Below are positions 28,120-33,598 of a stretch of DNA of 64,000 bases, piece after piece. Position 1 is the first letter of the stretch; the number at the start of each line of letters is the position of its first letter. Under the pieces are notes generated by a model. The model saw only the letters and a list, made by a program, of their open reading frames with translations, was not told the DNA's origin and ran no database searches. Both the position numbers and the translations under genes were made by a program. Source of the stretch: Marinomonas vulgaris (GTDB lineage: Bacteria > Pseudomonadota > Gammaproteobacteria > Pseudomonadales > Marinomonadaceae); contig NZ_JAGSSV010000009.1 of NCBI RefSeq assembly GCF_018145875.1, positions 1 to 64,000 of the forward strand, in the 5' to 3' direction.

Positions 28120-29340
28120 CTACATGGCAACCAGAAAATTGTCGGCCCATTTAACCGCTTGCAAATAAGTCGCTTTGAGATCCGCTAAATCTTGAGGGTG
28201 TTTGATATGGTGCCCATTGCCATAATGTTCAACCAAGTCCAGAGCGTGACCCACCCTTCCCGAGCGGTGCACAATGGCATTAATAAACTCACTTGGTAAT
28301 GGCAGCTGGCCCAAAACTTCGTCTAACTTCATGCCAGTGCACACATCCATCATGGACAGCATACCCGCTAAGAAATACTTATCTTGGTTATTGTACTCGC
28401 GGGCAGCGGCAAACAATTCAGCGTGTTTAGCGCGCACCATAATTTGTTCTAGCAATACGTGCTTATCTCCGACCATTTCAGACATCAGCAATAAGTTCGT
28501 AATCGCTTTTAAATGCTCAACACCAATCAGCATGATCGCCAAACGCACCGAATCCACCGACGCCACTAATCCAGTAATCGGAGAATTTAAGTAACGCAGC
28601 AGCTTGTGTACGAGCCCCGCGTCTTGGCTAACAATGTTTTCCAGCTCGTCGATGCTCAAGGTCGAGGTATTTAATAAAGACGACATGAGCTGTAACAACG
28701 TCATGCTGTTGACCTTGGCTGCCTTGCTGAACATCACTTCTGGCTTTTCAAAGAAATAACCTTGAAAATAATTTACCCCTAACAGGCGGCAAAATTGATA
28801 ATCTTCCCAGGTTTCTACTTTTCCGGCGATGACCTTTACATCGAACCCTCTCAAGGATTCCATCTGTTGATGAAAACCCTCTTGCCCCAAAGCTCGAATG
28901 TCTAGTTTGATGTACTCCGCCAGTTCAATAAAAGGTGTCAGCTTGCCATGAAAGGTAAAATCGTCCAAGGCAATCACACATCCTTCTTTCACCCAACGAC
29001 GCAGGGCCGACAATAAAATCGCATCGAATCCAGCGTTGCTTTGCACCTCGATGACCATATTGTCTTTGTTGATTGGTAAACCGGTTGGACTAAGTAAATA
29101 AGCGCGGGGGAAGTTAATAAAGGCCTTGTTGGTACCAACAAGATGCTCCATGCCCATTTCCAATAAGCTGGCCGACATTACCTGCGCTGTGGCGCTCACC
29201 TCGTCCATTACATCCGCTTGAACAGACACCGCATTTTGGCGATAGAGCAACTCGTAACCCATCACCACCAAGCGACTGTCGACGATAGGTTGTCTCGCAA
29301 CGGCAACGTTTGAGTAAGCGGATTGTGCAGTGTCGACCAT
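28120..29340 (-). CDS. EAL-HDOD domain signalling protein (YuxH/CdgJ-like)
   Basis: A 406-residue cytoplasmic protein with an N-terminal EAL domain (about residues 10-200) and a C-terminal HDOD domain (about 205-390). EAL residues are only partly kept: GYELLYR for the EAL triad, INFPRA, VIEVQS, ALDDF and IKLDI look preserved, but the loop-6 DFGxGYSS is replaced (DDFTFHGKL) and AEGVE reads AGKVE. Such YuxH-type proteins are either weak phosphodiesterases or c-di-GMP-independent regulators; Vibrio CdgJ, which acts in motility, is a relative. I start at ATG 29340 (MVDTAQSAYSN); the frame is open 49 codons further without family support. No operon partner. Confidence 0.87.
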   Translation of the reverse strand: MVDTAQSAYSNVAVARQPIVDSRLVVMGYELLYRQNAVSVQADVMDEVSATAQVMSASLLEMGMEHLVGTNKAFINFPRAYLLSPTGLPINKDNMVIEVQSNAGFDAILLSALRRWVKEGCVIALDDFTFHGKLTPFIELAEYIKLDIRALGQEGFHQQMESLRGFDVKVIAGKVETWEDYQFCRLLGVNYFQGYFFEKPEVMFSKAAKVNSMTLLQLMSSLLNTSTLSIDELENIVSQDAGLVHKLLRYLNSPITGLVASVDSVRLAIMLIGVEHLKAITNLLLMSEMVGDKHVLLEQIMVRAKHAELFAAAREYNNQDKYFLAGMLSMMDVCTGMKLDEVLGQLPLPSEFINAIVHRSGRVGHALDLVEHYGNGHHIKHPQDLADLKATYLQAVKWADNFLVAM

Positions 29341-29511
29341 AATGTAACGGTTCCAAAAAAGTGGGTGTGGTAAGTAACGCAAAAAATTCAGTCTATAATG
29401 ATCTAGTGTCTCAATATTGTCTAAAAATTGCCATTGGGTGCTGGCAATAATCTTGGTAACATGAGCTGTTAGATAAAGCAAAAACAAAGCCGAAAATCTG
29501 TGGGGAAAATA

Positions 29512-31445: not shown

Positions 31446-32288
31446 ATGCTCAGCTATCGCCATATTTATCATGCAGGCAACCACGCTGATATTTTAAAAC
31501 ATTTGACGGTCAGTCAAATATGTCGTCATTTTGTCAAAAAAGACACGCCTTTTTTTTATTTGGATACCCACGCCGGCATTGGTCAATATTCGCTGAACTC
31601 TGAGCAAGCGCAGAAAAACAAAGAATTTCAATCGGGCATTGCCCGTTTACTCGAAGAAGATAGTCTTCCCGAGCCTATAGAACAATTGCTCGACATCGTT
31701 CGTGAAATGAACCCGACAGACGCGCTCACCATGTATCCGGGCAGTCCTAAAATTGTCGATTATTACGTGCGCCAAAAAGACAAATTGCACCTGTGCGAAT
31801 TGCACCCGAACGATTACCCAACATTGGCGGCGCTGTTTCCGAATAAACGTAAAGCCAATGTGGTCAAAGACGACGGCTTCGCTGCGGTGAAAGCCATGCT
31901 GCCACCACCACAAAAACGCGGTTTCGTGTTAATGGACCCACCATACGAAGTCAAAAAAGACTATCAATACGTGGTGCAAGCATTGGAGGATGGCCACAAA
32001 CGCTTTCCTCAAGGCACTTACGCTATCTGGTATCCAGTGTTAAACCGTCAACAGGCCAACGATTTACTCAAAAGCGTCAAGGCCACTAAAATTCGCAATA
32101 TTTTATTGTTGGAATTGTGCATTAGAGACACGGAACAAGAGCGCGGCATGGCAGGAAGCGGTATGATTATCGTCAACCCACCTTGGACACTCGCCAAAGA
32201 AGCCGAGACGTTTTTACCGGTATTAAGTCGACTCTTAGCAGAAGACAACGAGGCGGGCTACCAAGTCACTTGGATTACCCCAGAATAA
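31446..32288 (+). CDS. rlmJ: 23S rRNA (adenine(2030)-N6)-methyltransferase
   Basis: Methylates A2030 of 23S rRNA. The 280-residue protein starts with the RlmJ hallmark MLSYRHIYHAGNHADILKH and has the N6-adenine methyltransferase motif DPPYE (about residues 161-165) after an S-adenosylmethionine-binding HAGIGQYSL region. Length equals that of E. coli RlmJ (YhiR, 280). It was long described as a DNA-uptake protein (ComJ-like) before the rRNA activity was shown. A PAS/GGDEF-like gene follows after 28 bases and may be co-transcribed. Confidence 0.95.
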   Translation: MLSYRHIYHAGNHADILKHLTVSQICRHFVKKDTPFFYLDTHAGIGQYSLNSEQAQKNKEFQSGIARLLEEDSLPEPIEQLLDIVREMNPTDALTMYPGSPKIVDYYVRQKDKLHLCELHPNDYPTLAALFPNKRKANVVKDDGFAAVKAMLPPPQKRGFVLMDPPYEVKKDYQYVVQALEDGHKRFPQGTYAIWYPVLNRQQANDLLKSVKATKIRNILLLELCIRDTEQERGMAGSGMIIVNPPWTLAKEAETFLPVLSRLLAEDNEAGYQVTWITPE

Positions 32289-32316: not shown

Positions 32317-33540
32317 ATGAGTACCCCGTTCGAATTGGCGTTTAAATACATGCCCACCCCTGCGTTTATTATCGACAGCAACACAGGGCGGTTGGTGTCT
32401 TTTAATCGCAATTTCAAAGCCCTATTTGATAAATTAGACGCCAGCTTACCCAACACCTGGGAAACACTGTGTGAAGACGCGAATCACGCCGAATACTGGC
32501 ACATGCTTAATAGTAAAATACAGTGTGGCAACATAGAACGCTGCGACACGCTCATTCGCATCGGTGATAAGTTAGTTTCCATGCAGTTGGATTTCCAGCA
32601 TTTAGGGGAAACGGTATTGGCGTGCGCTTACAACACGGACAACATGGATTTATCCGCTGCCGACAACACCTTGCTCAAATTCGCCTTAACCGAATCATCA
32701 GCAGGGCTTTGGGTATGGGAAACCGACACGGACTTGGTCTCTTGCTCCAAATCCATCGCGACTTTATTGCATTGCAGCCTAGAGCAAACGCCTCGCTCCA
32801 CCACAGAGTGGCATGCCTTGGTGCATCCAGACGATGTAAAAAAGCTTGCCAATGTCGTGAATGAACACGTTGCTCTGAATCAAAATTACTACGAAGTAGA
32901 ATACCGCATCTTAACCGGTAATCAGCATTATTTGTGGGTAAAGGAACGCGGCAGAAGCTACTCAAAAGGCGTCGATGGCAGCATCAAAAAAGTCATTGGG
33001 TTTGTCGTTGATATCAGTCACCAAAAAGCCCTCGAAGAACATTTGCGCAATCAAGCCACCTTCGATGAACTCACGGGCTTGCTCACTCGCGGCGCGGCAC
33101 TGACCCACTTCAAAAAGCAACTTGGTTTAGCAAAGCGCCAATACACACCGCTGACCATGGCAAAAATTCACCTCGATGCGAACGACAGACTGAGCCATTT
33201 GCCCATGGAAGCGCGCAATATCGCGATTCAAACCTCGGCTCGGTATATTTATAAACAAATACGTGAAGCCGACGTGCTCGCCCGAGTTGAAGCCGATAAA
33301 TTACTGCTGTTACTGCCCAACACCAGCGTGCGCGATGCAAAAAATTTACTGCAGCACATGATAAATCCATCAGAAGAAGAGACGGCCACCTTGTTGGTCG
33401 GCAACTCCGAACCTACGGATTTCTGTATTGGTATCGCGGCCTTCCCAGAAGACGGTGAAACCATCGACGAGTTAGCACTCAGTGCCAATCAAGCGGTTGA
33501 GAATGGTCAAGCGACCTGTAAACAAATCGTTGTGAATTAA
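32317..33540 (+). CDS. PAS-PAS protein with degenerate GGDEF domain
   Basis: A 407-residue cytoplasmic protein: an N-terminal PAS-like domain (about residues 5-110), a second PAS with PAC segment (about 120-240; HPDDV, YRILTGNQHYLWVKERG, GFVVDISHQK) and a C-terminal diguanylate-cyclase fold starting with ATFDELTGLLTR. The signature GGDEF is replaced by EADKL (325-329), so cyclase activity is very unlikely. The inhibitory c-di-GMP site RxxD is intact (R316-E-A-D319), five residues before the lost motif. It could thus act as a c-di-GMP receptor linked to a sensory PAS domain. AAGGAG precedes the ATG. It follows rlmJ and ends at a bidirectional terminator. Confidence 0.88.
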   Translation: MSTPFELAFKYMPTPAFIIDSNTGRLVSFNRNFKALFDKLDASLPNTWETLCEDANHAEYWHMLNSKIQCGNIERCDTLIRIGDKLVSMQLDFQHLGETVLACAYNTDNMDLSAADNTLLKFALTESSAGLWVWETDTDLVSCSKSIATLLHCSLEQTPRSTTEWHALVHPDDVKKLANVVNEHVALNQNYYEVEYRILTGNQHYLWVKERGRSYSKGVDGSIKKVIGFVVDISHQKALEEHLRNQATFDELTGLLTRGAALTHFKKQLGLAKRQYTPLTMAKIHLDANDRLSHLPMEARNIAIQTSARYIYKQIREADVLARVEADKLLLLLPNTSVRDAKNLLQHMINPSEEETATLLVGNSEPTDFCIGIAAFPEDGETIDELALSANQAVENGQATCKQIVVN

Positions 33541-33546
33541 CTACGT

Positions 33547-33583
33547 AAAAAGGCGCTGCCCATGATGGTGCAGCGCCTTTTTT
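33547..33583 (+). terminator. Bidirectional terminator between PAS-GGDEF gene and folA
   Basis: AAAAAGGCGCTGC pairs perfectly with GCAGCGCCTTTTT; A and T runs on either side let it serve both the rightward PAS gene and the leftward folA. Confidence 0.92.
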
Positions 33584-33598
33584 GACTTTCGTTATCTA

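Follow-up and report, generated by a model that had tools for sequence, protein, structure and literature searches.

A degenerate GGDEF protein encoded beside rlmJ in 48 Marinomonas genomes is a probable c-di-GMP receptor

The stretch of Marinomonas vulgaris DNA analysed here (64,000 nucleotides in full, hereafter the window) carries a gene for a 407-aa protein that is probably a sensor of c-di-GMP, as predicted from its sequence and from those of its orthologs. Its GGDEF domain has lost the GGDEF motif throughout the genus sample, while three residues aligned with the c-di-GMP inhibitory site (I-site), R274, R316 and D319, are invariant; the gene is under purifying selection, and the protein clusters with PAS-PAS proteins in which both sites are present. 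With a probability of roughly two in three, we favor the reading that the protein is a former diguanylate cyclase that has lost catalysis and has been kept as a cytosolic c-di-GMP receptor, likely one of the PopA/CdgA/CdgI kind. A degenerate GGDEF protein may be taken for a dead enzyme. Comparing the orthologs across the genus shows which features disappeared (the GGDEF motif and most aligned catalytic positions) and which persisted (the residues of the c-di-GMP site), so that a receptor function becomes directly testable with point mutants. Receptor candidates in other genera could be ranked by the same approach. The features discussed below are as follows, in window positions.

31446..32288, + strand: rlmJ (PF04378, 297 bits), 28 bp upstream of the gene for the 407-aa protein
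32317..33540, + strand: gene for the 407-aa protein (translated ORF), with a questionable PAS, a PAS and a degenerate GGDEF domain
32329..32484, + strand: PAS_8-like N-terminal stretch, residues 5-56 (Pfam 17.4 bits, below the cut-off of 21.8)
32737..33006, + strand: PAS_3, residues 141-230 (Pfam 52.2 bits, cut-off 25.6)
33055..33507, + strand: degenerate GGDEF domain, residues 247-397 (Pfam 51.5 bits, cut-off 23.8)
33136..33138, + strand: R274, at the position of WspR R198 (secondary I-site Arg) by spacing as in WspR; invariant in 48/48
33262..33264, + strand: R316, Arg of RxxD (primary I-site), from the translation; invariant in 48/48
33271..33273, + strand: D319, Asp of RxxD, from the translation; invariant in 48/48
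33289..33303, + strand: EADKL, residues 325-329, replacing GG(D/E)EF, from the translation and the ortholog alignment
33355..33357, + strand: H347, at the position of PleD R390 and PelD R402, counted 18 residues from the motif end; variable

Translation of 32317-33540 bears out the initial annotation of this DNA, which had read EADKL instead of GGDEF and an RxxD at the five-residue spacing. The RxxD is READ (R316, D319), where READVLARVEADKL begins at residue 316 (nucleotide 33262), and the five residues V320-V324 separate D319 from EADKL. The span of 33262-33300 given for this feature starts correctly at R316 but ends one codon early, as the motif runs to 33303. Of the two PAS domains that had been described, PAS_3 scored above its cut-off, whereas the N-terminal PAS_8 was sub-threshold in the window protein and was found in 16 of the 48 orthologs at E ≤ 0.1. 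At that same threshold, PAS_3 and the degenerate GGDEF domain were both found in all 48.

The gene does follow rlmJ, as had been proposed: rlmJ ends at 32288 on the same strand. An rlmJ gene lies upstream on the same strand in 49/49 Marinomonas rows, at distances of 23 to 148 bp (counted residue to residue, stop codon included), and ilvD lies upstream of rlmJ in 48/49, the exception (L078) ending at a contig edge. These arrangements make the gene for the 407-aa protein a syntenic core gene. With folA downstream on the opposite strand, its nearest neighbors are ilvD, rlmJ, folA and thyA. Outside the genus, rlmJ was absent from the flanks of about 1.5 kb of 12 homologous loci. The gap to folA is 58 bp in the window (33541-33598) and about 490-550 bp in five other loci (L032, L044, L047, L065 and L069), where it is filled by an ORF of 130-142 aa on the folA strand. 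We take this ORF to resemble a YjbQ-family protein. Upstream of ilvD, the other strand carries an EAL-HDOD protein gene (28123-29487, − strand; HDOD 52.9 bits, EAL 40.1 bits over part of the model), a second c-di-GMP-type protein near the locus.

Each Marinomonas genome searched had one ortholog (48/48, one of these genomes being only 77% complete). We extracted 49 rows and counted 48, the protein of Marinomonas algarum (L061) being identical to that of L039. Searching at family level instead of genus level gave these 48 genomes again, and a related-locus search gave one contig only, that of M. algarum. Identity to the window protein went down to about 46-48%. One ortholog (L055, G027:C22:322068-323180) matches until residue 371-372 and then has a different C-terminus, for a total of 429 aa, perhaps owing to a frameshift or a sequence error. 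At the level of the order, 31 of 390 genomes had a match at E ≤ 1e-25, namely 18 Marinomonas and 13 others, the latter at 25-31% identity; the 390 genomes were drawn evenly, and the four best first-look candidates were scored in most of them.

The combination of a lost motif and a retained RxxD held across the orthologs, so that the outcome named in the initial annotation as refuting it, a non-conserved RxxD, did not occur. The GG(D/E)EF signature of an active diguanylate cyclase, replaced by EADKL here, was found in 0/48 copies, in which the alignment gives the family pattern [EAD]x[DEN][KN]L, while R316 and D319 were unchanged in 48/48 (49/49 rows with L061). All six Arg codons are used at R316 (CGT 20, CGC 13, AGA 7, CGA 5, AGG 2 and CGG 1, n = 48), indicating that the DNA turns over while the residue stays. 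R274, also invariant in 48/48, lies at +24 from the D of DELTGL and 11 residues before the metal-Asp column, a spacing equal to that of WspR R198, and by this position would sit at the second half of the c-di-GMP site. The equivalent second-domain Arg residues are WspR R198, PleD R313 and DgcR R163, R274 being matched to them by spacing. Residue 347, at the third-Arg position, varies (H 21, N 10, S 5, and others, n = 48), which suggests a site make-up of the WspR/DgcR type and not of the PelD type. The description of the inhibitory site as intact thus holds for R316 and D319, to which the invariant R274 can be added, but not for the third Arg of PleD and PelD, replaced by the variable H347. 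Taken at the sequence level, the 407-aa family combines GGDEF homology, a degenerate motif, RxxD and the second Arg, the sequence features sought in receptors of the PopA/CdgA/CdgI/SgmT/YdaK kind.

Purifying selection was evident from dN/dS values of 0.005-0.05 for the whole gene (nine non-overlapping close pairs), with 0-0.056 for residues 237-407 (nine pairs). Mean entropy over the 48 copies was 1.51 for residues 1-115 versus 0.77 for residues 247-397. Predicted structures had a mean pLDDT of 34.2 for the whole protein and 51.8 for residues 237-407 (two input sequences each), and both models are too poor to judge the burial of R316.

In the receptor that we propose, R316 and D319 of a GGDEF domain would bind an intercalated c-di-GMP dimer, and the site would be completed by R274 from a second such domain, supplied by the other subunit of a homodimer or by a cognate cyclase. 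Cross-linked in this way by c-di-GMP, the two domains would change their relative geometry. The PAS part would act as a second input, and the output would be binding to a partner protein, for which the remodeled ex-active-site loop V-[EAD]-x-[DEN]-K-L may serve. The ex-active-site hairpin (33289-33324), with the consensus [EAD]-x-[DEN]-K-L-L-L-L-L-P-N-T, is about as conserved as the I-site and is possibly a partner surface.

Several described proteins share this combination of residues, and the statement in the initial annotation that such proteins act as c-di-GMP receptors agrees with the reports on PopA (PMC12564702) and PelD (PMC7112168). PopA of Caulobacter, reported to have a degenerate A-site with RxxD and to bind c-di-GMP (PMC12564702), differs from the 407-aa protein by its response-regulator front end, its status as a PleD paralog and its described role in CtrA degradation. 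CdgA (Bd3125) of Bdellovibrio bacteriovorus has GVNEF with RxxD, and its report gives a Kd of about 2 uM for c-di-GMP and no cyclase activity seen (PMC3271064). Like the 407-aa protein, it has lost the GGDEF motif and has RxxD five residues upstream; unlike it, CdgA is described in prey invasion and at the cell pole, and the two are likened by description, not by sequence. The same holds for CdgI of Escherichia coli, described with a degenerate A-site, an intact I-site and bound c-di-GMP and as lacking EAL (PMC5635695). It resembles the 407-aa protein in its degenerate A-site, its I-site residues and the lack of EAL, but its N-terminal domain is one common to DgcT/DgcX, not PAS, and it is known for contacts with other GGDEF domains.

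PelD of Pseudomonas aeruginosa and B. cereus is likewise reported as a c-di-GMP binder with a degenerate GGDEF and RxxD, and in the B. cereus protein the R395A change at the third-Arg equivalent abolished detectable binding (PMC7112168). PelD is described as having a GAF domain, as belonging to a Pel operon and as requiring a third Arg (R402/R395), whereas the 407-aa protein has PAS and H347; the lack of that Arg counts against the receptor reading. The GAF-GGDEF arrangement in a pel operon was not seen here, where PAS_3 precedes GGDEF and the immediate neighbors are ilvD, rlmJ, folA and thyA. As it lacks the third Arg, the protein was rejected as a member of the PelD family. Among other degenerate GGDEF proteins, the I-site Arg is reported to be needed for c-di-GMP binding in SgmT of M. 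xanthus (PMC3509222), and in YdaK of B. subtilis for c-di-GMP binding and for binding the cyclase DgcK (PMC7064775); SgmT is a hybrid kinase and YdaK a membrane protein, unlike the 407-aa protein. The make-up of the site is that of WspR and DgcR, in which RxxD is joined by an Arg from a second GGDEF domain; here, judging by spacing, R274 would take that role. WspR R242A and R198A were reported as purified essentially free of c-di-GMP (PMC2270323). In DgcR, the I-site is described as RxxD completed by a single Arg of the second subunit, the third Arg being too far from the ligand in the complex but possibly touching it in the activated state (PMC8041772). Unlike the 407-aa protein, WspR and DgcR are active enzymes that use the site for feedback inhibition. 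Some reports call for caution: SgmT without its GGDEF domain gave the same phenotype, so an I-site can be conserved and yet have no visible role (PMC3509222), and the GGDEF domain of TmoK of M. xanthus is reported neither to make nor to bind c-di-GMP. Among the matches listed in literature searches, no title dealt with the 407-aa protein (Marinomonas with c-di-GMP or GGDEF; rlmJ with GGDEF) or with a PAS-degenerate-GGDEF I-site receptor (degenerate GGDEF, I-site, PAS).

As RxxD is common in GGDEF domains, a single occurrence proves little. Among 35 other GGDEF domains of the same genome (a single-letter change such as AGDEF being counted as non-canonical, L097 being a partial match and L099 and L026 aligning poorly), RxxD was present in 9 of the 23 canonical domains, one of these nine also having the second Arg, and in 1 of the 12 other non-canonical domains, that one with the second Arg as well. 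The meaningful part, as judged from the alignment, is rather that RxxD is invariant in 48/48 copies that all lack GGDEF. With 43 of the 154 sites in residues 247-400 invariant among the 48 copies, the chance of three given sites all being invariant is 0.021 over the domain sites and 0.0057 among the 40 charged sites, figures that assume independent sites and include R274, which was picked after the alignment was made. Since the sites are taken as independent and the block 312-338 is conserved as a whole, these figures give modest support. One further locus of this genome (L027, G000:C5:56288-56710) has a GGDEF match with one in-frame TAA.

The alternative that survives best, though we hold it unlikely, is a pseudo-cyclase scaffold that works by protein contact alone, without c-di-GMP, for instance as an inhibitory partner of an active cyclase, with R316 and D319 kept for folding or for contact. 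In the stretch 312-338, 13 of 27 columns are invariant in the 48 copies, including R323, P334, N335 and T336, and conservation of this whole stretch means that folding or a partner could explain that of RxxD. The former active-site loop is strict, with K328 and L331 in 47/48 and L329, L330, L332, L333, P334, N335 and T336 in 48/48, and CdgI is reported to make strong contacts with several GGDEF domains (PMC5635695). However, CdgI is described as a c-di-GMP binder too (PMC5635695), and most of the other GGDEF domains in this genome (14/23 canonical, 11/12 non-canonical) lack RxxD, indicating that the domain folds without need for the Arg. Furthermore, R274 and R316 are 42 residues apart, both occupy I-site positions and are jointly invariant, which also speaks against a role in contact alone and for the c-di-GMP receptor.

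The origin of the family can be read from its closest relatives outside the genus, eight proteins of PAS-PAS-GGDEF type (L083-L090). All eight have GGEEF and RxxD, and seven have the second Arg; at the R390 position, six have K or R, and the closest two (L083 and L084) have Q or D. Because these relatives carry both motifs and the Marinomonas copies lack GGDEF, catalysis would have been lost while the binding residues were kept. Fifty-seven columns are common to at least 7 of the 8 relatives. Across the 48 Marinomonas copies, 23 of these columns persist in 47 or more, two in 44, one in 17 and 31 in 11 or fewer. The 23 retained columns include all three of the I-site, and the 31 lost ones include all five of GGEEF. 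At positions 285, 290, 293, 301, 325-329 and 398, the residue of the relatives occurs in ≤11/48 copies, the ortholog-relative alignment being rough between 285 and 301 and residue-level statements there approximate. The metal, guanine and phosphate positions in this alignment are, except for D344, those we take from the PleD literature. In a tree of 44 domains, which included 5 of the 48 orthologs, left out L030 and L095-L099 of the same genome and had a bootstrap that was not settled, the family members grouped with L083-L090 (support 97/91); the stem leading to them measures 2.23 changes per column, and the branches beyond it are shorter. A burst of change followed by strict conservation looks, on these alignments, more like a new function than decay.

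These comparisons also bear on two readings that we regard as far less probable. In one of them, the I-site is a neutral relic of the cyclase ancestor, and the PAS domains do all the work. The presence of RxxD in 8/8 relatives of other genera indicates that it was probably inherited, as this reading has it, but 31 of the 57 relative-conserved columns have fallen to ≤11/48 and the I-site has not; the use of all six Arg codons at R316, the low dN/dS of residues 237-407 and an N-terminal part that is more variable than the GGDEF part all make a neutral remnant very improbable. Least likely of all is a protein that is still a cyclase, or whose old active site binds GTP or some other nucleotide. 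Position 327 does carry an acidic residue in 46/48 copies (D 42, E 4), and V. cholerae VCA0965, with the changed motif AGDEF, is reported to make c-di-GMP (PMC3974145), but both Gly, the second acidic residue and the Phe of the motif are gone here, and the aligned metal, guanine and phosphate positions are lost or variable, with the alignment rough from 285 to 301.

The only other non-canonical GGDEF domain of this genome with RxxD belongs to a second degenerate GGDEF protein of 368 aa with a DEHEL motif (L098:389-1495, + strand, corresponding to G000:C2:5710-6816). It had one match in each of the 48 Marinomonas genomes, with identity down to about 26-28%, and 26 of its 368 sites are invariant in the 48 copies. 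Among them are the RxxD residues R266 and D269, R231, which by spacing corresponds to WspR R198, and K297, which corresponds to PleD R390; Arg 273, ahead of the motif, varies. The chance figures among charged sites are 0.0049 for three sites and 0.0006 for four; the protein was chosen for its own RxxD, and the invariance in the other 47 copies was not selected. Judged by these sequences, the DEHEL protein is the stronger receptor candidate, as it keeps its I-site residues more strikingly, and its retention of these residues also supports the receptor reading of the 407-aa protein. An order search with this protein gave matches outside the genus in 61/390 genomes, at E 1.7e-13 or weaker and mostly over the GGDEF stretch. 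A further possibility, to which we give little credence, is that these two core pseudo-cyclases have reached the same state, with GGDEF gone and a WspR-type I-site fixed, and read c-di-GMP as a pair, each lending RxxD and the second Arg to a c-di-GMP dimer shared by the two or to a cyclase, with c-di-GMP deciding GGDEF pairing. If so, c-di-GMP itself would choose which GGDEF domains pair up in Marinomonas. The gene for the DEHEL protein is flanked by what we take to be a dihydroorotase-like gene and a yggS-like gene.
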